In this document: piece by piece, positions 146 through 46,300 of the stretch
How positions within the stretch are numbered: position 1 is the stretch's first letter
How the letters are laid out: each line of letters opens with the position of its first letter
Assembly: GCF_048128805.1 (NCBI RefSeq)
Contig: NC_136016.1
Span: 18,126,176 to 18,190,175, forward strand
Length of the DNA: 64,000 bases
Reading direction: 5' to 3'
Source of the DNA: Centroberyx gerrardi
Taxonomy: Eukaryota; Chordata; Actinopteri; Beryciformes; Berycidae
The notes under the pieces: generated by a model
Database searches by the model: none
Told to the model about the DNA's origin: nothing
What the model saw: the letters and a program-made list of their open reading frames with translations, nothing else
Translations under genes and position numbers: made by a program

Positions 146-3100
146 CCTAAATGACTTTCTAGGACTGAAGAGCCGCACGTTCTCCTTCTGGTACTGCCTG
201 AAGAAGGGATGGGCCAAGGCTTGCTCAGCATTGAGACGGAGAGCTGGGTCCACCACCAGCAGCCTGGATATCTGAGCAGCACGGAGAATTATTGGAAAAA
301 ATTAACAGAACTGTTTGTTATACTATATACCATTTTGGAGATACAAATATTGCATTGTAGCTTGTTCTTGGTACTGAAAACACCCACAGGCTTTGACAAT
401 TAGGTCTAGTGCAAACACTGAACAACTAAAAACAATGATATACTGAACAATGATGATGGGACTTAGAGCTGTCCACACACTGGTCTCATTGACTAAACAA
501 ACAACCTAGAAAAGGAGAAAGTGGATGAAGATTTCATCCAGTCTTTTGTCAACTTAATGAACATTCAGGTGAGAAGTTTGAGAAACTGGATAAGTTAGAG
601 AACTGTCATTTTTATCTATTTGAGAAACTTGCCATTAGGGCATTCTAACATTGGTATGAACTACTCATCACCAGTATGAATTTAATAATGAATATCTTCA
701 ACTATATGAAACAACTAAGTTTGTCAAATAGTAAAATGCTATGTAGTTCACTGTGGCACCAACACGCCATCTGGACTTCAACTGTAGGCTTAAACAGGAA
801 TCAAAGTTGACAGAATATGGTCTTACCAGGTCTTTGACAGTGTCGGACCGGTCATCCCACTCTGGGGAGCTGAACTGATAGCGACCCTCCATGATCATCC
901 TGAGCATCAGCATCTGTTTGCGATGCCAGAACGGCGGAGAGCCGGCCAGTAAGGTGAAGAGGATCACTCCACAGGCCCAGCTTAGCAACAGGTACATGAA
1001 AAACATTAAGCAAGAATTAGAAATAAGATCGAGCACAACGCACATGAATATGATTTGTGAATCTAGCATTCAAATATTGAGATAAATGTTACTGACAAAG
1101 GCATGACAAAATAAAAACAAACTTACAGATCAACCTCTTTCCCGTAGCCTGGGTGCATCTCATCCATCGAGCATTTCAGTATCTCAGGAGCCAAATAACC
1201 AGGCGTCCCACAAAGCTCTAATTTATCATAACAAAAGACAAAATCAAATAAGTTTGACTTCTGCCTCCACAGATGAAAACTAAATCCTTCACATGATGGA
1301 GTGGATCCACAAAACTCTAATATTGATCTACAGTCATGTGTTTGGTTTCAGATCACCTCTGAGACTCTCCTCAGGCTGCAGCTGGACAGAGAAACCAAAG
1401 TCGGACAGCTTGATGTGTCCCTGGTCGTCCAGCAGAACGTTCTCGGGTTTCAGGTCCCGGTGGACGATGTTGAGGGAGTGGAGGTACTGGACGGCCTCCA
1501 GCAGAGCTCGCACCATGCTCCTGCAGAACAAACAGATGTTTTAATAAGGCATGAGTTAAGTGTTCATCAGTTTCAGACAGCGACACTGACTGTAGCGAGA
1601 CTTTCCCTTGTGTTCATCCTCACCTAGTCTCCTTTTCACTCAGAGTAACCTTTTCTGTGAGGTAGTCAAATAGCTCTCCTCTCCTCATGCTGAAAAGGAA
1701 AACAGCGACACTGAGTGATCGTACAGATGCAACAAAGATTTCATAAAGAGAAGAGAAGATACAAAGACGGCTGCACTGTCCATAAAACGTGAAGTTGCTG
1801 GTGGCAAAAAAAGGTGTTCTTGGAGTTAGATCATGAAGAGAGATACATCATGGCCTCTAGTACTTGAACATGCAAAAAGTAAAAATGTGAACAATAATAC
1901 CAAGGCGCACCCTGATGAAGGCATGTAAGCCGAAAAGCACTGGTGGGAAGCCAATATAATAAAGGCTTTTTAATATCTTTCACTGCAAACAGTGTGCCTC
2001 CATCTTTGAGAATGGCCATTTTTTTTGGTTTTTACATTTTTCATGTTCCAGTACTAGAGGCCATGATCTATCTCTCTTCGTGAAATATTTAACAAATATT
2101 AACCTTTCTGTTGAACGACTTATTTGTCTTCATACTCACAGGTCAAACACCAAAAATATGAAAGTTGTCGACTCATAGGAATCAATGAGAGTGACTAGGG
2201 GATAAAAGACAAATGAAACCGTTTCAGTGATATTGAATTCCTCATGACATACAAATCAAAGCGTCTTGCGGACCAAAGGAGAATAGAGAATACCAACGTA
2301 CTAATGGAGGAGTGTCCCTTCACCGTGTTGAGGACTTGGATCTCCTTCAGCGTGGAGGTTTTCACCTCCTCCAGCTGCTGGACCGTCATCTTCTCCGCTG
2401 TGATTTCAATGATCTTCACCGCCAGCTCCTGTCCTGTGTGTCTGCGCACACACCTGCGCACCACACTGCTCACACCCCTGACACACACCACCAGGAACAC
2501 AGCATGGGTTTCACAGGTGTGACCAAGTCCACTTTGATCAAGTCCCAAGTCAGTCACCAGTCTTGGGGCACAAGTCTCAAGTCAAGTCTCAAGTCTATGT
2601 AGAAAACCAAGTCAAGTCAGAACAAATCAAGAGTCCAGTATCAATTCAATATCTTAAAACAAAATATCTAGGACTTTTCAGTGCAACATCGTTTTAATAG
2701 GATAAAAACGTGGTAAGTGCATCATGAGTTTGATTTCTGTGATCAGTTTCAAGTTCAATAAACTCAATCATTCCATACAAATTCAGAATTCAAAAACAAA
2801 ATTTAAATTCAATTATCTGGTGGAACAAATGTCGTACCTTTCAATCGAATTCATTTACACAAACACAAGATCTTTTGTCAAGACTTTAGAAACATTTTAA
2901 AGTCAAGTACAAGTCAAAGTCAAGTCCCAAGTCACCAGAACCAAAGTCAAGTCAAGTCTCAAGCAACTAACTTGAGTCTGACTCGAGTCCAAGTCATGTG
3001 ACTTGAATCCCCACCTCTGCTTTCACCACACAAAGTTAAATTGATGTTTATGTTTCTTTACTGGACTCACCTGCCAATCACCTCTTTAGGATCATACTTC

Positions 3101-31050: not shown

Positions 31051-34000
31051 TCAAAGGAAAGACCCCATGTCCAGGTCCATAAAAGTGTTAGCATCCATGC
31101 TAAAAGAGGAGTCGTAGGCCTGGGTGTTCTGGTGCATCTTCTGATGGTGTCGCAGGTTGGACTTGCTGGAAAAGCTCTTATCGCACAGCAGGCAGGCAAA
31201 GGGCTTCTCTTTGGTGTGGATTCTTCGGTGACATATGAGCTGAGTGGACACGCGGAAGGCCTTGCCGCACTCCAGGCATTGGTAGCGCTTGGGCTCCGTA
31301 TGAATGCGCCGGTGGTTCTTGAGAGCCATCAGGTTGGTGAACTCTTTCTGGCAGACGGAGCAGAAGAAGGAGCCCGTCTTATGGCTGTTCTTGTGGTTGA
31401 GCAGGGAGCCGGCGTGGCGGTAAGTGCGTCCACAGTGCTCACAGACGTGGCTCTTCTCTTCTGTGCCAGGGGCGTCATTACTCTCCTGTGGGTCAGAAAT
31501 GCTACTTGGCATATGGGACAACGGTGGGACCAGCTTGGGCATTCCCTCCATCCCCATGGTCTGATTTATGCCCGCGTCCCAGCAGAGATTGTTATCCATG
31601 GGCGCACCCATGCCTTGTTGATAGTGGCCCTGAGCCCTGTGGTGCATGTCTTGGTGCTGCTGGTAGCTGGCTGTGTTGGGAAAGCTCTGTTGGCAGGGGC
31701 TGCAGACCACAGACCGGTCCTTTGAGTGCACCTCCATGTGGCTCTGCAGGTGTGCGATTAGACAGAAGGTCTTGCCGCACTCGGGACAGCAGTGTCGCTT
31801 CATCTGGGAGTGTATCTGTAGAGTGAGAGGATCAGGGAATGTCTGGAGACACAAGGTACAGTGGTGGAGGTTTTCGGAGTGTGTCTTTTTATGGTTGAGG
31901 AGGGAGCCAGCGTGGCGGTAGGAGCGCCCACACAGGTCACACCTGCAGCAGGGACACGTTCATATTCAATCCTTAATATTCCATTGCTACCCTGATCATT
32001 TTACCCAACAGTGAATTACTTCTAAACTGGAAATGACTGATAATATTGATAACTCATTTCTTACAATTATACTTCAAAATAATCCACAAACATTCAAAAT
32101 AGCAGTCAGAACAGTTATGTACAACAAATGGCATATATTAATATAAATATTAATCTGAAAAATACATACTACAGTAATGATGACTCAAAAGACAGAACAT
32201 GACTTACATACTCAGTTCACAATGGGACAGTAACTCACATGAAGCACTTGTCTCCACTCTCTGACTGATGGACACCAGCTCTCGTTGCGTTATCCTGCCC
32301 CCTCCGGCAGCGATGCCTCTTCAGGCCGGACCGGCCCTGGAAGCTCTTGCCACATGCAGGGCAGCTGAAGTGACTTGCCACCCGGTTGTGCACCTTCTGA
32401 TGGTTGTGCAGGATACTGGCAAGACGGAAGGCCTTTCCGCACGTGAGACACACATATTTTTTCTTCTGTGTGTGGATACGTGTATGATTGCGTAAAGCCA
32501 TGGGGTTGGTGAAGGGCTTAGAGCAAAATGTGCAGCTGAAGTGTCCTGTCTTGTGGGTGTTTTTGTGGTTCAGGAGGCTGCCTGCGTGACGGTAGCTGCG
32601 ATTGCATATGCTGCACGTGAAAGGCCGCTCCTCTTTATTTAGGGACATATCTGTTTGTGCAACACTATTGCCTGAAGGTCCATCACAGGTGTGGGCTGCC
32701 AGTTGGTCAACAGACAGAAACGCCTGCTTACATTCCTTGCACTTAAAGGCTCTAGTTTTTAGACCCCTCCTACTTCCTGCCCCGTCCTTTCTGAGGTCGG
32801 CACATACATGGGTTAGTAACTGCTTCTTTCCCCTGAAGCCTTTTCCACAGTTTTGGCAAGAATGTTTCTTATATGCAAAGTGGGTGCGCAAGTGGTTCTT
32901 CATTGCTAGTTGGTTAGAGTACGTGTTGTTACATACAGAACAGTAATATTCACCTGTCTTATGAGAGTTTCTGTGGTTGACCAGACTTCCTGCATGCCGA
33001 TATGTGCGCCCACATTGGTCACAGGCGAACGGACGGAGGTCGCCTGTGTCCTCTGATTTGACTAACGTCTCAGGCTTTGTTTGACCCGTTTTGCCTTCAG
33101 GGGGTTGTCTGCGCCGTCGGATGGGGGTCAAAGCCTGATTGGCATTTGCATTTTGGGACTGCATTCCTCCATCTGACCTGGTCCCATTCATCTGCATGAG
33201 GGCCTGGATCTGGTTGTTGAGTTCCTGGATTTTGGCTTGGTTCTCCTTGTGCCTTCTCAGGTGGTTCAATAGCTGCTTCTGAATTTTGAAGGCTTTCCCA
33301 CACTCATGGCAAGTATGCCTGGGGGAGGAGACAAGGCATTTGGTTAATCCTGTGTTTGCAAAACAAGGAACAGTCTACAGAAGGAATAGAGGTATGATGC
33401 CAAAACACATCTGCAATGCAGACAACAGAAACAACAGAAGCAATTCTTAGCTTGTTTCACTGCAGTGTTTTACAACAATCACTTTCAACAAGAATTGACA
33501 TAGCTGCCACATGAGTAAAAAAATGTCAGCATTTAATTTGTATAAATTATGTGAATTTTCTTAAAGCTGGCACTAACCTCTTTATATCAAAGTGGGACCT
33601 CTGGTGGTTTTTAAGGGCTAATAGATTGTAGAAGCGTTTCTGGCAAACAAGGCAGCGGAATACTCCAGTTTTGTGGGACTTCTTGTGGTTGAGAAGGGAG
33701 CCAGCGTGTCTATATGACCGCCCACACTGATCACACTTATACTGACGATCTTCATTATCAACATTTTCTTTGATGCGTCGCACTTCTTCAGCCTGGGAAA
33801 CATTTACTTTCATTTTCTCTTCACCATTTGTTGACTCATTTTTCCTCTCAGCTGTACAACCATGGTTCTCAAGATGATGGTAGTTGGTGCAGAAGATGCC
33901 ACAGCTGCCACAGATGATGCTCTGTGCCTCCAGCTTGCCTCCAGACCTGTCGCTATTGTTCATATGCAAACAGTTGACATCATCTACCTGGGCCTTGTTG

Positions 34001-36186
34001 TGTAGCAGCTGATGAGTGATTAAGTCCTGCCTCTTGGCAAAACTTTCCCCACATGTACTACAGATCATCATCTCTCCTGGCTCATCATCTTTCACTTCTT
34101 CATGGGAGGACATGGAAGAAGGCACTGAGCTTGCAGGGGTACCATGGGCCTGAGTGTGCCCACGGAGATGGCTCCTCAGAGCCCTCATGCTGGTGTAGCT
34201 GTTCCCACATACAGAGCATTGATAAAGATCTCCGTCATCATCCTCTTCAGAGTTATTACCTTCCCCACCGCCATTCAACTGATCACTATTTATATTTTCA
34301 TGGAAATTTTGTTCAAAGTAACTTTGGTCATGGCTACCATTCAGACCTTGGAATTCTACATTATCCCCTGTATTTCCTATGGCACACTGACCATTTCTGT
34401 CCTGGAAGTTTATATTACTGCCATAGCCATTGTTAGTAGCTTCATGTTGCTGTTGTAGCAGGGGGCAACTATGAGACTTGATCCCTGCAATGTCTGCGAA
34501 TGTCTCACCACAGTCTGCACACATGTGCCTCTGCATCAGGTGTTCGTCATGAGGTAGATGCACAGTCATATCCTGGGAATAATCCTGACTGAATTGCTCA
34601 TGGTACAACGCTCCATTGCTGTGGTCAACTGCATTCTCTTGATCAATACCGAGCATAGGGCCAGTATCCTCCTCCTCGTGTGAGGGGAAGCAGCCCTGCT
34701 GGTTTTCCAGAGTCAGAGGCTCAGAGGAGAGCCAGTCTCCCTCATTGTTCAGGCTAAAAGAGGATGGTTGAGCCTTGTGGAGGCGAAGGTGACTCCTGAG
34801 GGCGGCCAGATGAGGATAACTCTTTCTGCAGATCGAACACTGGTAAATCCCGACCTGATGGGACCTCTTATGGTTGATTAGGCTCCCAGAGTGCCGGTAG
34901 CTTTTACCACAGATCTGACACTTGAAGCGACGCCCATCAGAATCTGCAGCCAAGTTCTCTTCCATTTCACTTGCATCATCAGCATTTTGTGTATGTGCCA
35001 GGGTAGGATTGAGAATATCTGAGTCGATGACTGAGGGCTCTCCCTGAGTGTTGCTGGAGGATGGTGTTTGATTATTGGAGCAGTCTGAATAAATATGACC
35101 ATTATTTCTAATCTGCTCCTGGGGCTGATCATAATCTCCATGATTATCCATTGACGATGATACTGAAGGAACATTATTTACAGGAGATGCATAAAAATTT
35201 GACTCGGGAGAAGCAATACTGTTATCATATGATATATTATGGTTCTCTGACAAGCCATCCTGAAGCCCAAATGACACAGATGAAGAGTTATGCATTTGGA
35301 TGTGTTCCTGGAACTCCTCGTCACTGGGGAACAGTACTTGACATAGGTGGCAGAAATTTACTGGAGCATCCTGGCTCTGAGGTGAAAACTGGTCTGGTGT
35401 TGTGCCTGTGTACGTCACATCCATCGAACTAGGGTCTGCCCCACTTCTTGTCTTGTGAGTTCTCTGGTGGCTGTAGAGGGCAGCCATGTTACTGAACAGT
35501 TTGAAACAGACCGTGCACTCAAACATTCCTACCTGGTGAGTCTTTTTATGATTGGTCAGGCTTCGATGGTGTATGTATGACTTGTCACACAAATCACATC
35601 TGAAAGGTCGATTTGCTGCATCATCAGAGGTCTCAGTTTCCGCATTATGGACTAGCCCCATCTTGTCCTCAGTGGGGCTATTTTCTGTAGAAATTGCTAC
35701 ACTGGCTGACTGCTCACTGAAACAAAGTGAGTGATCGTTTTCAATTTCGTTTTCATGTCTATTTTCAAGTGTGGCATACTCCATGTCTACCTTCCTAAAC
35801 GACTGCTCCTTTGCTTGCCTGGCTAGATGAACCCTCTCGTGCGTAGCCAGTTGTGTAGCCAGACGAAATGCCTTCCCACATTCTGTGCAGGAGTACTTCT
35901 TCTGTGAAGTATGGCTCCGGAGGTGACTCTTCAGGGCCAAAGCATTAGAGTTTTCTTTGCCACATATTTGACATTGAAAAGAACCCACATCGTGCGTCTT
36001 CTTGTGGTTAGCCAAGCTACCAGCATGCCTGTAACCACGTCCACATTCATCACATTTAAATTTACGTTCCTCCTCCTGTCGGAGGTGACTATCCATGTGT
36101 TCTAGCAGACTGGGCATATTGGAGCATACCATGCCACACTGTTTGCAAGGGAAACCTTTTGTCCTGCCAGGCTCTTGCACAGCCAT
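31051..36186 (-). CDS. znf646: Zinc finger protein 646, many-fingered C2H2 protein
   Basis: Presumed nuclear DNA-binding regulator; its targets are unknown. Three coding exons, 36186-33578, 33318-32239 and 31942-31051, have GT/AG ends and join in frame to 4581 nt, 1526 residues (human ZNF646 about 1830). About 32 C2H2 or C2HC-type fingers are spread through the protein, many grouped in modules: a finger with YRHAGSL.NH, then one with an N..ALK.H helix, then one with CGKAFR...QL..H. About eight fingers carry YRHAGSL or YRHSGSL, the ZNF646 hallmark. Fingers are separated by acidic, Asn/Ser-rich linkers, not the tight TGEKP linkers of znf668. The zinc finger at the exon 1/2 junction is split by the intron (IKR / HTCHECGKAF). 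The ATG at 36186 opens MAVQEPGRTKG; an acceptor at about 36411 shows a 5' non-coding exon upstream. Confidence 0.92.
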
Positions 36187-37209
36187 TACAGGATAATAAT
36201 TGAAATAACTGAACCTGACAGAGATAGTATAAATAAGTGGAGGGGAAATGCATTAGATGTCTAGCTCGTCCATATGAAAAGAAGCCAATTCTTTGCAATA
36301 AGGTCCAAGGAGTGTCCAGGAAAGTGACACAACATAAGATGTTAAGCACCAGTTCCACGGCATTAGGAGGAGAGTGACTTGGGTTTGGGAGAGGCAGGCA
36401 AATCATGAAAGCTGTGGGGGGTAAAGAAAACGTCAATTAGAGATAAGCCAAGGAAAATGCATTAGTATGTTAGTTACAAACTCATTTTTCCTAAGACTGT
36501 GACAGTATGTTCATTCAATTTTATGTAATGAGTTAAGTTGATTCTACAATATCTTTAACTCAAAGAATAACATGCTATCACTCAATTTCCCCACAATTAT
36601 CATTAAAGTTTTATTTTATTCATACAATCATACTACAACATAATGTTAAACAAATCATACCATGCTCCCACGCCAGTTTTGTAGCGATAGAGAGCATCTC
36701 ATAGTTAGTTTTATTAACTATCTACAATTCTTTAGCCATGATGTACATCTTACAAAATCCATAAAGCCCTGCACAGCTATCCAAGTGCAATGTGCAAAAC
36801 GTAAATGTCCAGTCGAGCATAAACAACATTATGGATAAACTTAGGCTAGAAACTGTAGCTAGCCCGGCTTGTTGTCATGCTATATCTTCGCACTAGCGAG
36901 CTAACTCTACTAGCAATGTCAATAAACCGGGAGACCAACGCCTCACGCTTAAAATATATCGCCATTGTAAAAGTCCATATTCTCCGACATTTTAAAATGA
37001 ACCAAATAAATGTACTTGTGTTGACAGGGCCATGTTAACGTGCGGACAGGCTGACTACAGTGATGTTTGTTTTACAAAACAGTGAGCTAACGTTAGCATG
37101 CTAACCGCTACCTAGTAGCATCATCATGCTTAGCTAAACAAACATTGCACCAAAAAGCGAAGAAGTCGTTTTACGCGAAACCACCGTATCAACGCATAAG
37201 TCAAATGAA

Positions 37210-37932: not shown

Positions 37933-38546
37933 GTAAGAAATAACTTTTTTATGGAAATACATACACGATGCAAAAGACAGAGCTAAATCCATTCCGTAAA
38001 ATCATGGTCATAATGATGATGACACTAGTGAGCGAGTAGGTGCAGCCGGTCCTAAAGCCAGCCATTTTGAGTAGGTAAAATAACTAGCAAGCAAGCTAGC
38101 GAAAGGGAAAACGTACATATTTACGTCCAGTTGTTTAAACCATCGCATCGACTCGTGATCGTTAGTTCTCGTACCAAAAGGTCTCCAGTCGTTTACATGT
38201 CTGTCTGTCATGCATTGCACATTGTGGTCTCCACACCATTGCGCTGCCAACTTCCTCTGGCATCAAGCGGTTAGCTTATTGTCCCTGAGGTCCTAATGCC
38301 AGCCATTTTGTGATTTAATACCACACACCCACAACATTCTATTATATTATACTATAGATTTGGTGCAGGTCCAGCAGCATCCACTGTCATTGACGTACTG
38401 CTCTGCAAATGCAAGACTGGCCTATGGCTTTGGTCTGCTGTCTGTTGATAAATCTAACTTCCAGTCTCATATCCTCATGCTAATATTCATCTTTTTATTT
38501 ACAGAATCCTTACAAATGCCTTTTTGTTTCCAGATATAACATAAAG

Positions 38547-40517
38547 ATGGCCTCTCCTCAGCCTGGCAGCCCCCCCCTTGCAGAGCAGTACACCCCTCCT
38601 TCTGCACAGAATGGAGAGAGCCAACAAGAGGAAGAGCCGGTGAAGGATCAGCCTACGAGAAAGCGCGGCAGAGGCAGGCCTCCAAAAGCCAAGCCTTCCT
38701 TCAAATGCTCTGCATGTCAGGAGGCTTTCAGGAGTCCCTCAGCTCTACGGAGTCACAAGCTTGCGGCACACGCAAAGGAACGTCAGCAGCAACACTCGTG
38801 TTCCCAGTGTAGTAAAATATTCTCTAGCAAGGCCCAGCTCTCAAAGCACGAGCGCTCCCACTCAGCGCAGCGCCCGTTTCAGTGTCCCGACTGTCACAAG
38901 GCTTACAAGACTCCCACAGAGCTACGCAACCACAGCCGCTCTCACACTGGGGAGAAGCCGTTTATATGCACAGAGTGTGGCAAGGCCTTCATGCAAGCCA
39001 TATGCCTGAGGATCCATATGACGCAGCACAGCGGAGAGCGCCCGTACTCTTGCCGCCAGTGCTCTAAGAGCTACCCCACCCTGTCTAAACTGAAGGTGCA
39101 CATGCGCTCTCACACGGGAGAGAAGCCGTACTTCTGTGCCGAGTGCGGTAAGAGCTTCGCCGACCCCTCTGTGTTCAGAAAGCACAGGCGGAACCACCAG
39201 GGCCATCGGCCGTACGCCTGCGATGAGTGTGGGAAAACCTACACAGAGCTGAAGGACCTGAAAAACCACGAGCGCTCCCACACTGGAGAAAAGCCTTACC
39301 TGTGCTCGGACTGTGGCAAGGCCTTCTCCCGCTCCTCCTCCCTGGCCTGCCATCAGCGCATTCATTCCCAGAGCAAACCGTATCAGTGCGAGCAGTGCGG
39401 CAAGGGCTTCACCCAGCTCTCCTCCTACCAGTCTCACCTCCGCACGCACTCTGGAGAGAAGCCGTTCCTCTGCCCACAGTGTGGCAAGATGTTTTCTGAC
39501 CCCTCCAGTTTCCGCCGCCACCAGCGAGCCCACATGGGTTTCAAGCCCTACCCCTGCGATAAGTGCTCCAAGAGGTTCCGGCAGCCGGCAGATCTGGCCG
39601 TGCACGAGCGTGTTCACTCTGGCGAGCGGCCGTACAAGTGCCAGAGCTGCGACAAGGCCTTTGTAGCATCCTGGGATCTGCGCCGCCACATGCTTGTACA
39701 CACAGGACTCAGGCCCTTCTCGTGCACCGAGTGCGATAAGTCGTTCGCAGAGCGCTCCAGTCTCAACAAGCACCGTCGCGTGCACTCCGGAGAGCGCCCG
39801 TTCAAATGTGAAGAGTGTTTCAAGTCGTTTGTTGTGTCCTCAAGCCTGCGCAAACATGAGAGAACTCACCTAGCCGAGCGATCTGAGCAGCAGCAGCAGC
39901 AACAGCGGGAGACGGCGCCCGGGTCTGCCTCAGTCTTTCCTGCTCACACCACCCTGCCCCAGTTCTCCTGTACGCATTGCGATGCCACGTTCGGAACCTG
40001 GGACGAAGTGCAGGCCCACGAGAGCCTTCACACCATCTCCGCTCCTGCGACCGTCACCAAAATCGTCCCCCTGGGTTCACATGTGTGTGAGACCTGCCAG
40101 GCGGAGTTTGCACAGCTGGCGGATTTGCAGGAGCACGAGAAGCAGCATCCCAAGCCGAGGCCCCACGTCTGCAGCAGCTGTGGCAAAGGTTTCCTCAACA
40201 AAGCTGGACTGCGTAAACACCAGAAGATCCACTCCACCAACAAACCGCACAGCTGCCCCCAGTGTGGCAAAGCCTTCCTGTTTGCTGCCTACCTTCGCAA
40301 GCACTTACGGACACACCCAGAGCAAACTGCAGCTACCCAAATGACTGACCTAAACATTATTCAGCACACAGACCCGCTCCCCTCTCCTCCGCCCCCCAGT
40401 GAGGTTTCCCCCACCACCGTTGAGCCCAGTGCAATATCCTTGGCAGTTCCAGTGACTGTACCTGTGACGGCCTTCCAGACCCTGCCAGAGTACTTGGTCA
40501 AGGAGGAGGGACTGTGA
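38547..40517 (+). CDS. znf668: Zinc finger protein 668
   Basis: Nuclear C2H2 protein; human ZNF668 has been linked to p53 stability and DNA-damage repair. One coding exon of 656 residues (human 619), with an acceptor just upstream of the ATG. The N-terminus is Pro/Gln/Glu-rich and carries an AT-hook-like KRGRGRPPK at residues 39-47. Eighteen C2H2 fingers follow: fourteen from residue 52 to about 445, mostly joined by TGEKP/SGERP linkers, then a Gln-rich gap and four more. The order and wording of fingers such as [36 protein letters not shown] and [14 protein letters not shown] match human ZNF668 closely. The C-terminus ends LVKEEGL. Head-to-head with znf646, as in human. Confidence 0.95.
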
Positions 40518-41960
40518 GATATTTTACTGTTTTGGAAATATTATTTCACAACTATTCAGCCTTCGGCCTTCAATCTTTTTAGATGACAGGCTTCATTTTG
40601 ACAGTCGGTTATTTTTCAAAATAGCTTCCTTAAAATTTCAATATGGAGTCTACTCATTGTGAATTTGTCAAAGCTTTCTCCTTGTTTTGTATTGCCATGT
40701 GATTTCAAAGATGTTATGTATATGTTATTCATGTTTTAAAATGCGTACTATAAGTAGCCTACTATCAAATTGTCTTATCTGTTGTAATCACTTCATAAAA
40801 ACATGGTGTTGCAAACGTATATTCTGATCACTGTAAGAACTAATCTCACTTAAAATGTTGTGATTTCAGTTAAACATGTTTTATAATACATTTTTAATTA
40901 CAGCCTGTCTTGAATGCTCTCCAGTCTTTGAATTTACATTTTGATGAAACAAGTAAACAATTTGTAACTGTTTTCTTGTGTAATGAATCATTGTGGAAAA
41001 ATAATGAGTCAAGGATAAAAACACATTATCATACTAATAATTATTTTTTATTACAATGTTATCAGTAGTAACCTGCGTTCCCAGACATATCAATACAGTC
41101 TTTACACAGCGTCATGGTGAACGGGAGAGTAGAGGTCAAGAAATGACATTTTTTGGTGTTCCTATATAGAATTCAAAGACAGCCTCTGTTTCAGTGTCTT
41201 TGCAGTATTTCCTATGTATAAACATCTTAAACACCGAAGAGAGAGATGCATAATGTTGCTTACGAAAGGAGAAGTAGTCTTAGGTCAAGTCAACACATTA
41301 TATGGTGAGAAACTGTAACACAAACATTGATGACGGCGACATTTCTTGAACCTATAACAGGCTGAATGCAAAGGACAGTGAGACAGTCCATTAGTGGATA
41401 GGCTGCAACTGTTCAAGGTAAGCTCTCTTATCTGCTACACTTAATGTCTATAAACAACATTTTGCCTTCAAGAACATAAAGGACCACTTTAGTCCAAACA
41501 CCAAAATAGAGCTGTATATGTTTACTGCGACATCTATGAATGCTTCAATTAATAGTTTTTACTTCAATTAAATTGCGTGTTTCCTTAAAATCAAGGACCG
41601 GTATTAATTTGAAACAGATGGCCTCAGGTGGAAGCAGGTGGGAGCTTTGTTGGTTTGACAAAGGAGAAAATATGTGGCGTGGTAAAGCTCAGCAGAGGGC
41701 TTTCCTCTGTGTGTTTGCATTGCATCCTGGGCACAACACATTTAAAAATGAACATTTTCTTTATTGTACTTAGCAAAGTTATTATGATTTAGATTATTTG
41801 CAAAATAGCGACACTGCAAAATCTTCTGTGTAGAAGGCCCTTAAATGGATGTATATTGGTAGTTGTTATTTTAATGTTGAATGTGCAATTATCTGTCATG
41901 ATAAATAAGCACAATTTTACAGTTTACTTTTTAACTTTTTGCCAACTTCCCCACTGTTAG
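40518..41960 (+). other. znf668 3' UTR and spacer before the connexin gene
   Basis: AT-rich, with no coding exon recognised. A plus-strand acceptor (CCCCACTGTTAG at 41949-41960) lies just before the connexin coding exon, so a connexin 5' non-coding exon probably lies somewhere in this stretch, but I could not place it. Confidence 0.45.
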
Positions 41961-41986
41961 ATTCACACCAAAAGCCCGGAGAGACG

Positions 41987-42694
41987 ATGGCAGCCATAGT
42001 AACCGGCCTCATCCCCATCCTGCGCACGGCGGTGGACAGCACCACCACGTACAAGTGCCGCTCCCTGTGGTTCGGCTTCCTGTGCATCCGCCTGGTCATC
42101 CTGTTCCTGGCTGAGCTGCCCTGGTTCAAGCTGGACGCCGACTTCAGCTGCAACTCCACCAAGGACGACATCTGCACCCGAGCCTGCTTCAACGAACACT
42201 TCCACAAGCCGGTGATGGTGGCCTGGAACTTCTTCTATGTCCTGCTTATCCTGTCTGTCCTGCTCATGGAGCTGTTCGCCTCCCACCTGCGCTCCCTGGC
42301 CCAGAAGAAGAGCGCCCAGATGAGGGTCGATGTGGAGCTGGAGGCCCTGGGGAAGGGGGAGACTCCGGCTGGATCCGCAGACACCAAGGCCGAGATGGTC
42401 ATCGATCTCCACAGAGACAGAAGCGCTGTGGGCTTCTACTTGCTCAGCATCATTCTGCGTATTGTGGTTGAAGTCTGGTTTGTGTTTGTTCTGCTGACCT
42501 GGAACCTGCCCACGCTGAAGGGCCCCTTCAAATGCAGGACGGAAATGTGCTCAGAGTTACACATTTGCCTTGTGAGGGCCGCCCCAGAGAAACGCATGTC
42601 TATCTACGCTTTGGCTTCCATCTCCAGCATGGTTATTGTTTGTTCAAGCTTGTTTTGTATGTACGCCATTGCTCACTATCTTTGCAAATATTAA
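41987..42694 (+). CDS. Divergent connexin (gap junction protein), about 27 kDa
   Basis: Connexins form hexameric hemichannels and gap junctions in the plasma membrane. A single coding exon encodes 235 residues. Four hydrophobic segments lie at about 26-46, 77-97, 140-162 and 208-232. The first extracellular loop has three cysteines in FSCNSTKDDICTRACF (C-x7-C-x3-C). The second has FKCRTEMCSELHICLV (C-x4-C-x5-C) followed by RAAPEKR, like the CFVSRPTEK of classical connexins. The loop between TM2 and TM3 is charged, and almost no C-terminal tail follows TM4 (ending AHYLCKY). The first-loop spacing is one residue longer than the usual C-x6-C-x3-C. I chose the ATG at 41987 because the upstream codons precede a splice acceptor and break the family N-terminus. 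It is a fish-type connexin; I cannot name the paralogue. Confidence 0.85.
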   Translation: MAAIVTGLIPILRTAVDSTTTYKCRSLWFGFLCIRLVILFLAELPWFKLDADFSCNSTKDDICTRACFNEHFHKPVMVAWNFFYVLLILSVLLMELFASHLRSLAQKKSAQMRVDVELEALGKGETPAGSADTKAEMVIDLHRDRSAVGFYLLSIILRIVVEVWFVFVLLTWNLPTLKGPFKCRTEMCSELHICLVRAAPEKRMSIYALASISSMVIVCSSLFCMYAIAHYLCKY

Positions 42695-43399: not shown

Positions 43400-46300
43400 C
43401 TAGGCTTTATGTTTATCCTTCAGTGAGATGGACTTCCTGTTGCTGTGCTTCATGTTGTAGAGCAGCGCTGCACCCATGTCTGTTAGAGACTGGAGGGAGG
43501 AGGAGAAGAAAGGAGGAATTATCAGGGGAGTAAGTGGAAAGAGATAAGGGACATAGATGGACAAATGCTTGAGAGCACAAAAATGCAACATCCAGTACAC
43601 AGTCAATTTTACATTGAACATTGTACAACACAATGAACACAGTGAAATGTTTATTCATGAAATGCTAATTGCTAACATTTTATAAGGATAATGAATTAAT
43701 TGTATTCAACCAATGCAGATTTCCAAGAGTAAATGAAAGGTTAGCTGCCACCACCAAGCTGCCACCCAAAGCTTTACCACCAAGCTACAATTGACAGTGA
43801 TTTTATGACATGATGTGCATTACCTGTGAGTCTGAAATGACTGATTTTCTCTGCAAAAAATAAATTAAAGAGTGCAGTGATTAAGTTTCAGTGTGGTGAT
43901 TATGATCATTGTGAGGTATAGACCATATTAAATGCACAGTATGCTATTAAAAGCTCACCCTGGTGTAGTTATGTATGTTGTTGTATATTGGCTCCATGGT
44001 TTTAACCCATTCTTGGTACGTCTGTTTGTCCTCTGCACTGCGATTATGCTCTCTGCAACCAAACACAGACACACCACTTACAGTATCTGCCCAGCCTAAG
44101 TATAAGACGGTACATTTCATAAACAATATGTATTCATAGACACTGCTTTCAGCAGTCAGTACATCATGATCTAGTCTTGTGCAACACACACACGATGCTC
44201 CTCATCAGTGCTTTCCTGTTCTTTTTGCTGATATTATCAACTTGATCTTAAAGAATAAAAATATCTTCATGCAGCTGAAACAAACGCTGGTTTAGAAAAA
44301 CAAATCTAAATATTTCCAGGTAAATAAAACATTTCAGAAAGTCAAAAACCTAACTACATCAGAGAGGCAGACAGAAGTAACACTTGGTGCTCTTGTGGAT
44401 TAGGAAAATGTCCTTAGGTTTATAGGTACTCACTGGGAACAGGAATCGAGTTTCTCAGGGACTCATCAGGGCCCTGATGAAAACCTTATGGTCGAAACAT
44501 GTTGGCTCTAAGCCATGACAATAGAGGCTTTTTCAATTTCAAGCTTTTAGTCTCTTCCCTCCTTCTTGGACTTAGATTTCCTTGGACATTGTGCACACAG
44601 CTCAAGAGTTTACTTTTTTCTCACTGGAGGTTTTCAATTTTAAAGGTAGTATCTCAGTTTTCTACCTAACTTAATAATTTTCATTGAGGAAAAAAAAACA
44701 AGGATGACATGAACCTTGCAGCCATGACTGATGAAACTGAGCTGGAAAAAAAACATATTCACCTAGTCTGAGATAGAATGATAAAGGTCTCTACATCCGT
44801 CACTCACATCGCTCTCTCGATCAGGTTCCTCTGCGCCTCTCCTTCCCCCCTGGCGTCCAGGAAGCGACCTCTGACAGCCAGAGCGGCGCTGGCCTGCGAC
44901 GAGTTGAGCTGGACGATGGCCAGAGACAGAGAGGAGAGGGCCGCCGAGCTGAGAAGGAGCGGCGTTACACTTTTATCAACATCAACAACCTCATCCCTTT
45001 CATCATGTCACCGCACAGATACACTCAGGCGGCCACTTTATGAGGCACTCTCCCCCGTTTTGCTCAAACAGCTCGCTCCTCCAGACGGTGACTTACGTGA
45101 CTGTGACTCAGTATGTGAAGCATGCAGCCTGGGTCGAGTGGTTCAGTTACTGTTTGACTAAACATTAGAACGGGCAAGACGAGTGATTTAAGGGACTTTG
45201 AATGTGGTATGATCGTCGGTGCCTGACGTGTCTCTTCCAGCATCTCAGAAACAGATGACCTCATGGGATTTTTAACACAGCTTTGTCTAGACTTTACTGA
45301 GAGTTATCCTAAACGAAAAAACGTCCAGCCAGCGGCGGTCCTGAGGGTGAAAACGCCTTGTTGATGAGAGAAGTCAGAGGAGAATGACTTGTTCAAGCTA
45401 ACAAACAGGCCACAAGCACACAATTAACCGCCCGGTACAACAGTGATGTGCAGAAAAGCATCTCAGAACGCACAACTCATTGAACCGTGAAGCAAATAGG
45501 CTACAGCAGCAGAAAAAAAGCTATGCCAGGTTTCACTCCTGTCAGCTAAGAACAAGATGAGGCTACAGTGGGCATGTGATGAAACTGAATGACTGAAGAG
45601 AGGGAAAACGTTGCCTAGTCTGACACATCTCAGTTTCTGTTGCAACATGCTAAAGGCAGGGTCAGAAATTGGCGTAAACAACATAAATCGACGGATCCAT
45701 ACTGCCTGGTGTCAAAAGGACAGGCTGCGGGTGATGATGTATTCGTGGGAATGTTTTCTTGGCACACATTCGGGCCCTTAGTAGCAACTGAGCATCAATT
45801 GAATGCCACAGCGCACCTAAATGTTGCTGATCAGGTGCATCCCATCCCAGCCACTGTACCTCTTTCCAAATGGAAACTTCCAGCAGGATAATCCACCAGC
45901 ATCTCAAGATGGTTCTAGGAACATGACAGTGACTTTAGTTCAGTCCCCAGATCTCAATCCGATAGAGACCTTTGGGATGAGGTGAATGGGATGTTGGAAG
46001 CATGAATGTGCTGCTGAAAAAAATCGACTCAACATGGACCAAGATCTTTCCAGCACCTTACTGAATCCGGGCCTCAAAAAATTCAGGCTGTTCTGGAGGC
46101 AAAATGGGGTTCTACCTGGTAAATTGGTAAATTAAATTGTCCACTGAGTGTATGTTATAGCAGCAGGTGAAATAGCATGTTGTTTGATTCATTTTTAATA
46201 CGCGAAACCTCCCTCTTGGCCCGACTCTATTAACAAAAGTGAGGTATTGTGATTTTGGGAACGTCATCTTCACCTGTCATCAGTCACCTCTCGGTCTGCA

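Follow-up and report, generated by a model that had tools for sequence, protein, structure and literature searches.

Introduction

The minimal type I hammerhead ribozymes of Penelope-like elements (PLEs) were reportedly described in the primary papers of Cervera and De la Pena in 2014 and of Lunse, Weinberg and Breaker in 2017. Later accounts report thousands of such ribozymes, lacking most of helix III, dispersed in the non-coding DNA of many animal genomes and situated, in some cases, in the pseudo-long terminal repeats (pLTRs) of PLEs (PMC7761336, PMC6155905, PMC7229834); the role of the PLE hammerhead is called a mystery in a 2020 review (PMC7761336). The subject of this work is a motif of the same kind in the fish Centroberyx gerrardi, at positions 44469..44508 on the plus strand of a 64,000-nucleotide stretch of contig NC_136016.1 (18,126,176 to 18,190,175; the whole stretch is called the window). 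This motif is a worn-out copy of the ribozyme carried by Penelope-like retrotransposons: a real but degraded member of a described kind.

With the described PLE hammerheads, the motif and its relatives share the core letters, a very short or absent helix III, the location in a PLE pLTR region and the large number of dispersed copies in an animal genome. They differ from them, as far as the known ribozymes can be compared through descriptions in later papers, by an extra unpaired A or U after A9, and the window copy differs further by the loss of the closing pair of stem II.

Two described systems are close in their manner of insertion. In the Poseidon PLE of Anolis (PAc), studied with purified components, the hammerhead lies at the pLTR junction, reverse transcription starts at two internal sites that define a tail, and both target strands are cut and extended (PMC11167929). 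In the endonuclease-containing Penelope elements of the rotifer Adineta vaga, pLTRs stand head to head as inverted arms, and the junction holds a palindrome, which in one family measures 18 bp; one arm bears a tail, and the target duplications are short (PMC3846280). These traits have observed or proposed counterparts in the family described below.

The Hammerhead Motif

Over 40 nucleotides, the parts of a type I hammerhead follow one another in order: the first strand of stem I (GGGCC, 44469-44473), CUGAUGA (44474-44480), an extra A, stem II (ACC/GGU, 44483-44485 with 44490-44492), GAAA (44494-44497), CAUG as stem III (44498-44501), UU (44502-44503) and the second strand of stem I (GGCUC, 44504-44508). 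Every letter named in the original prediction, which had been made from this sequence, is present. The type I core (CUGANGA, GAAA and UH, in this order and with stem I open) is complete, with no change in the 11 core letters tested. The CAUG that had been proposed as a self-complementary stem III agrees with the palindromic stem III of the relatives. The assignment draws on the letters themselves, on the family alignment and on a table of stem I pairs, both given below.

The motif had also been called intact, and in this respect the prediction is not supported. Position 44482 (+) holds an A where 26 of 29 family loci have a G able to pair with C44493 and to close stem II; A is found there in 2 of 29. 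In the window copy, A stands opposite C at 10.1-11.1, the closing pair is broken, and a stem II of 3 bp is left over an opened core. The 3-bp stem II of the prediction is a consequence of this substitution. Stem I is partly borrowed: two of its five base pairs draw on bases of the insertion junction, and many other copies carry TTTCTTGCC-like sequence upstream of the core, where the window has CAGGGCC.

Folding calculations showed that the 40-nt piece is able to form stem I. Its minimum-energy fold is not a hammerhead and has a z-score of -1.28, 22 of 200 shuffles being as good; stems I and II taken by themselves give -7.1 kcal/mol, compared with a minimum of -9.6 kcal/mol. When 90 nt of context are folded, the minimum-energy structure pairs UUUCUCAGGG of the left arm of the insertion (44451-44460) with CCCUGAUGAAAA, which contains the core CUGAUGA.

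A Dispersed Repeat Family

The motif belongs to a family of repeats, as had been supposed when a mobile family was proposed. Searches of the genome (779 Mb, 278 contigs) with queries of 140 and 195 bases returned at least 41 and at least 43 matches, respectively, window included; both counts are lower bounds, the best 40 of 96 and 40 of 148 candidates having been scored. Most matches to the 140-base query start at or a few bases from 44471, where GCCCTGATGA begins, and many matches to the 195-base query end at one place, about +194.

For this family (family 1), 29 of 30 fetched loci were aligned, L028 being left out. The majority sequence of the 29 loci, GCC CUGAUGA A GACC UUAU GGUC GAAA CACG UU GGC UCU AAG CC, is a clean hammerhead core with a GACC/GGUC stem II. 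The stem III positions behave like a decayed CGCG, and at the six positions regarded as CpG sites, 0.30 of the cells depart from the majority, compared with 0.085 in the flank (24 copies). All 11 core letters are kept in 11 of 28 aligned copies, that of the window included; the 11 letters together with a four-pair stem II are found in four of the 28, and the window copy is not among them. Across all 28 copies, the non-CpG core sites diverge slightly more than the flank (0.104 vs. 0.082).

Related Families and Stem Covariation

Further families were recovered with patterns in which the core was fixed and stem II left free. The pattern CTGATGA-N9-21-GAAACATGTTGG, with a CATG stem III, has 40 matches in the genome, and CCTGATGA-N9-21-GAAACGCGTTGG, with a CGCG stem III, has 62; the reversed-pattern control gave none in either case. 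Stem II varies between families (GGC/GCC, GACC/GGUC, GACU/AGUU, GGCU/AGCC and GGU/ACC). Among 55 distinct inserts, the expected register allows 134 of 162 pairs, compared with 73 of 165 and 74 of 162 when the register is slid by one. Related copies with compensatory stem changes, on which the original prediction had made its case depend, do exist in this genome, and the covariation that they show for a type I hammerhead is of moderate strength only.

In stem I, the third pair is G-C, A-U or U-A according to the family, and pairing at all of the first three positions is possible in 22 of 28 rows of the table. In most rows, the first two 3' bases are set by the search pattern itself, so the informative pair is the third. 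The table holds the window, 20 related-family loci, L076, L107 and those of nine family-1 loci (out of 30) that passed the core pattern, four having been dropped for failing it (L020, L027, L029 and L030); some rows are truncated at the motif, and their upstream bases are host DNA. Judged from these alignments, the stems would be real features of the master elements, with moderate covariation.

An unpaired extra base stands between A9 and stem II in the families looked at. The first base of the 55 stem II inserts is A in 53, U in one and C in one, and the extra base is U in the family that has an intact open reading frame (ORF; the L107 family, see below). The plus-strand hammerhead of chrysanthemum chlorotic mottle viroid (CChMVd) likewise has a natural insertion after A9: in this ribozyme A costs some activity, C and G are harmful, and an inserted U raises the trans-cleaving rate 3-4 fold (PMC3705267). 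CChMVd differs in being a viroid ribozyme whose activity is affected by loop-loop contacts, and no common descent is claimed. The agreement speaks for real hammerheads over look-alikes.

Four identical hammerhead-bearing PLE fragments, ~6-13 kb apart, were seen on contig C24 (G000:C24:18526474-18552780, L076). A tandem PLE array was considered for this region and rejected: the fetched unit resembles, by eye, part of a RING/B-box-type gene cluster, and the fragment would have been copied passively when this cluster duplicated.

Link to Penelope-Like Elements

Two copies of the window family that reach further upstream, L006 and L024, hold decayed frames that resemble, by eye, the C-terminal GIY-YIG endonuclease of PLEs. 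When a 51-aa piece from L006 was compared with the genome, 150 matches of 309 candidates were scored, and one of them is an 813-aa open frame on contig C9 (E = 2.2e-5). This frame, L107, matches RVT_1 (E = 4.3e-9) and GIY-YIG (E = 3.8e-5). A hammerhead motif, with an extended stem I as judged by eye, lies ~640 nt past its stop codon.

The arrangement is not peculiar to one locus. In 11 of 11 further sampled loci of the L107 family, whose ORF state is known from open-frame lengths only, the motif is found at the expected distance after the endonuclease matches and is nearly identical to that of L107. A twelfth locus, on C10, has a family-b hammerhead ~1.1 kb after an endonuclease match. Because all 12 fetched stretches hold the motif, 11 of them in a form near-identical to that of L107, the motif is a standing part of at least the L107 PLE family in this genome. 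The combination of reverse transcriptase (RT) and GIY-YIG endonuclease that characterizes PLEs is present in the relative L107, and the hammerhead accompanies it in this intact member; the window family itself has only decayed endonuclease-like fragments. The Penelope-like origin that had been suggested for the minimal hammerhead is, hence, supported through relatives with PLE proteins.

Another kind of PLE-like unit was encountered at L050 and on G000:C53, C48, C14 and C9. These near-identical units of 5.97-6.05 kb, several of them in tandem and in both orientations, have a 726-aa ORF and a 734-aa ORF with RT plus GIY-YIG. As a candidate parent of the window family, the 5.97-6.05-kb element of C53 and C48 (also C14 and C9) was discarded: no hammerhead pattern was found in 19 loci, and there was no Rfam match in L050.

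Architecture of the Insertion

The insertion in the window consists of two inverted arms. The right arm (44471..44665, +) is a 5'-truncated PLE fragment that extends from the ribozyme to a "short" 3' end. The left arm (44366..44447, -) is a piece of the "tail" of this same PLE family (L027-based coordinates 198-288) in inverted orientation, and it corresponds to the tail part of other copies when read as reverse complement. Where the arms meet head to head lies the perfect 18-bp palindrome TCATCAGGGCCCTGATGA (44463..44480). The original prediction had rightly pointed to this palindrome and had placed it across stem I; from its letters and from comparison with other copies, it is the head-to-head junction of two inverted PLE arms rather than a part of the ribozyme.

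Inverted arms were found in 12 of the 39 loci examined. Exactly one arm passes the short end in 11 of them (L104 is undecided), and in 8 of these 11, both arms copy the same stretch and the tail is still on one arm. Of the loci concerned, L097, L101 and L103 were picked from paired rows of the 195-base search; the choice of L100 and L104 was based on their 5' ends. In L097, L100, L101 and L103, the long arm extends at least 28 bases past the short end and then leaves the fetched stretch; in L011, the short arm is defined by 23 bases. A single tail per head-to-head insertion should be read as an apparent regularity and not as proven. Twin priming from a single template fits L001 (the window copy), L002 and L024, whose arms do not overlap. 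It was rejected for the inverted inserts as a whole: one template cannot simply explain the overlapping arms of L011, L015, L026, L028, L097, L100, L101 and L103.

Two side observations concern such junctions. In other families, the copies of L077, L085, L086 and L090 also look head to head, with a junction that falls at the ribozyme core or within it, as judged by eye. In L104 (G000:C5:8474560-8474800), (TTAGGG)n telomere-type repeats lie between the inverted arms, both from the same PLE family, as if captured at the junction.

The 5' ends of the copies are bunched. With the first base of GCCCTGATGA as the reference, similarity to other copies breaks off at -12 to 0 in 13 of 29 loci, of which the window is one. 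In 10 loci it continues upstream, to points from -35 to several hundred bases away (two of these loci, L004 and L006, are duplicates of each other), and in 6 it ends within the motif. These ends are extents of similarity rather than proven ends of insertion. The sequence at this point, TTTCTT, is simple, and copies with the motif are favoured by the query used. Three other families show a like bunching at the ribozyme edge, as judged by eye. A 5' end exactly at the cleavage site was also considered: three alignments start at 31-32 (cleavage would follow 33) and, on reading, L099 only is a clean case, which is too few to claim. Target duplications were recognized by eye at two loci, with 14 bp in L102 and 10 bp with one mismatch in L099. 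The 5' truncation, inverted pLTR arms, optional one-sided tail and short target duplications of PLEs are, in sum, all encountered in this family.

In comparison with PAc, the family has a frame at the motif that, by eye, ends after no more than ~40 nt, and ~100 nt separate the two 3' ends, whereas the PAc tail measures 30-40 bp (PMC11167929). In the main text of the Adineta vaga study, the word "hammerhead" occurs 0 times (PMC3846280); in the present case, the junction is at the ribozyme edge.

Genomic Context and a Second Copy

To judge from open reading frames and from splice signals recognized by eye, the insertion occupies a predicted intron of a minus-strand gene, in agreement with the intronic location that had been predicted. 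The neighbouring predicted exons are 44808..44948 (-; acceptor CTTCTCAG, donor GTGAGT) and 43959..44052 (-; acceptor TTGCAG, donor GTGAGC). The motif is on the plus strand, antisense to this gene, so the predicted pre-mRNA does not contain it. Pfam assigned no family to the nearest ORFs tried around the insertion. Elsewhere in the window, Pfam identified two long C2H2 zinc-finger ORFs and a connexin ORF at 33547-36252 (-), 38484-40517 (+) and 41909-42694 (+), a gene content in keeping with a vertebrate host.

A second and more decayed PLE hammerhead-like copy is present at 1912..1943 (+). It has kept a GGC/GCC stem II and has lost the first U of the UU before the cleavage point. The copy sits in a long imperfect hairpin, an inverted repeat at 1827..2087 in head-to-head arrangement, which gives sub-threshold matches to microRNA precursors (a MIR8562 hairpin match far below the family cut-off). 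Such matches at 1827-2087 and in L077, L082, L085, L086 and L090, all under the family cut-offs, were not accepted as microRNAs and are taken as hairpins of inverted arms. The tail that the copy near 1908 was said to share with the one at 44469 comes down to a AATAAAGGCTTTTT-like stretch recognized by eye.

Discussion

The locus is almost certainly a decayed, 5'-truncated insertion of an endonuclease-bearing PLE with the minimal type I hammerhead known from PLEs. Several results weigh against this explanation. Rfam reported no hammerhead in the whole window at the gathering threshold, none in 44301-44700 and 1801-2100 at E <= 10, and none in the related loci (19 of 20 related-family loci and L107). 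Stem II pairing as high as that observed arose in 77 of 2000 partner shuffles, so the decayed copies give no more than moderate covariation, and its strength lies in a few family-level changes. When the four copies ending inside the core are removed, the 24 copies left diverge less at the non-CpG core sites than in the flank (0.042 vs. 0.085), which may reflect ascertainment by the query; there may also be some constraint. Pfam found no GIY-YIG match in three decayed endonuclease-like pieces of the window family, and the comparison of five longer copies with the intact ORF of L050 gave a sole, insignificant alignment, at the endonuclease end (L071, E = 5.6); for these reasons, the link to PLEs is made by way of similar relatives. 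No intact close parent of the window family appeared in the 150 matches scored of 309 candidates.

The Rfam check that had been proposed for the motif turned out not to discriminate. The motif of L107, which adjoins an intact PLE ORF, is likewise without a hammerhead match, and the test is, therefore, judged to have little power for this short-stem class. The motif alone is weak and not strongly beyond chance: a mechanical hammerhead pattern with stems has one match in the window, and at least one match was obtained in 13 of 200 dinucleotide shuffles. For a looser CTGATGA...GAAA pattern, the window has 8 matches where 1.95 would be expected (8 was reached in one of 100 shuffles). The motif is raised above chance because it is a member of a dispersed family. 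A chance sequence unrelated to ribozymes, for which the shuffles and the silence of Rfam could be cited, has next to no probability left and, in our view, is already refuted by the genome searches: there are dozens of related copies with reversed-pattern controls at zero, the stems differ between families and yet still pair, and the motif recurs downstream of an intact PLE ORF and in all 11 further loci of its family.

The preserved letters raise the question of activity. With all 11 core letters tested in place, a 40-nt piece able to form stem I and a palindromic stem III that could dimerise, the window copy might be taken for a working self-cleaving ribozyme; this is quite unlikely, given the lost closing pair of stem II, a minimum-energy fold that is not a hammerhead and is unremarkable among shuffles, the energy deficit of stems I and II, and the pairing of left-arm sequence with the core in the 90-nt fold. 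In view of the broken closing pair, of a left arm able to pair with the core and of an antisense position relative to the host gene, the copy is probably dead and would no longer cleave. A ribozyme domesticated by the host for the regulation of its gene, like the intronic hammerheads of amniotes, would fit the location in a predicted intron, but it is very improbable for a motif that is antisense to the predicted gene, is one of many dispersed decayed copies and carries a rare change breaking stem II. It is unlikely, too, that the family is a non-autonomous one, retrozyme-like or SINE-like (short interspersed nuclear element), that borrows PLE proteins rather than a truncated PLE. Most copies are short, the family of L077 and L078 resembles, by eye, a ~90-nt unit starting at the ribozyme, and retrozymes carry type I hammerheads (PMC7229834). 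However, the 10 of 29 loci that share more upstream sequence form a gradient as for 5' truncation, and two of the upstream-reaching loci have endonuclease-like fragments, by eye. Retrozymes are, moreover, tandem repeats of ~150-450 bp bounded by hammerheads; the 39 loci compared show single or head-to-head copies and no tandem array of the repeat.

For a truncated PLE insertion, the following course may be proposed. In the parent element, a minimal type I hammerhead lay downstream of the coding region, in the would-be pLTR, with a very short palindromic stem III (CGCG or CATG), an extra A after A9 and a stem II of 3-4 bp. By analogy with published PLE work, the RNA of the living element would fold around the core and cleave after UU; two molecules may act as a dimer by way of the palindromic stem III, and binding of the protein of the element may be required. 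For the Anolis PLE ribozyme, cleavage is reported only in the presence of the protein (PMC11167929). At the window locus, the element RNA would have been reverse transcribed into the target, one arm being begun at the short site (~+195), and its partner, made on the opposite strand, at the tail site (~+300). Head-to-head joining of the two arms would have left the palindrome. The copy later decayed in the intron, antisense to the gene, most likely with loss of cleavage.

A wider idea is offered tentatively and is rather unlikely: the genome may record a part of the PLE hammerhead in integration. The 5' ends at the ribozyme edge and the one tail per insertion would fit a paired complex that holds two RNAs, one started per internal site and joined through (dimeric) hammerheads; with it would go a natural class of PLE hammerheads with an obligatory A or U after A9. 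In a literature search limited to titles, none dealt with an extra nucleotide or a palindrome in connection with Penelope hammerheads, which does not show that these points are unpublished. The additions made here to the described systems are modest: the extra A or U after A9, the bunching of 5' ends at the ribozyme edge and the single tail per head-to-head insertion.

The finding itself is the fossil of a known ribozyme class. Its short-stem form was missed by the Rfam models at the loci tested; hence, annotation based on Rfam may undercount it. One genome holds many PLE families with the motif, one of them with an intact ORF, and for this reason, the role of the PLE hammerhead, which has been called a mystery, is approachable from the junctions of many insertions.
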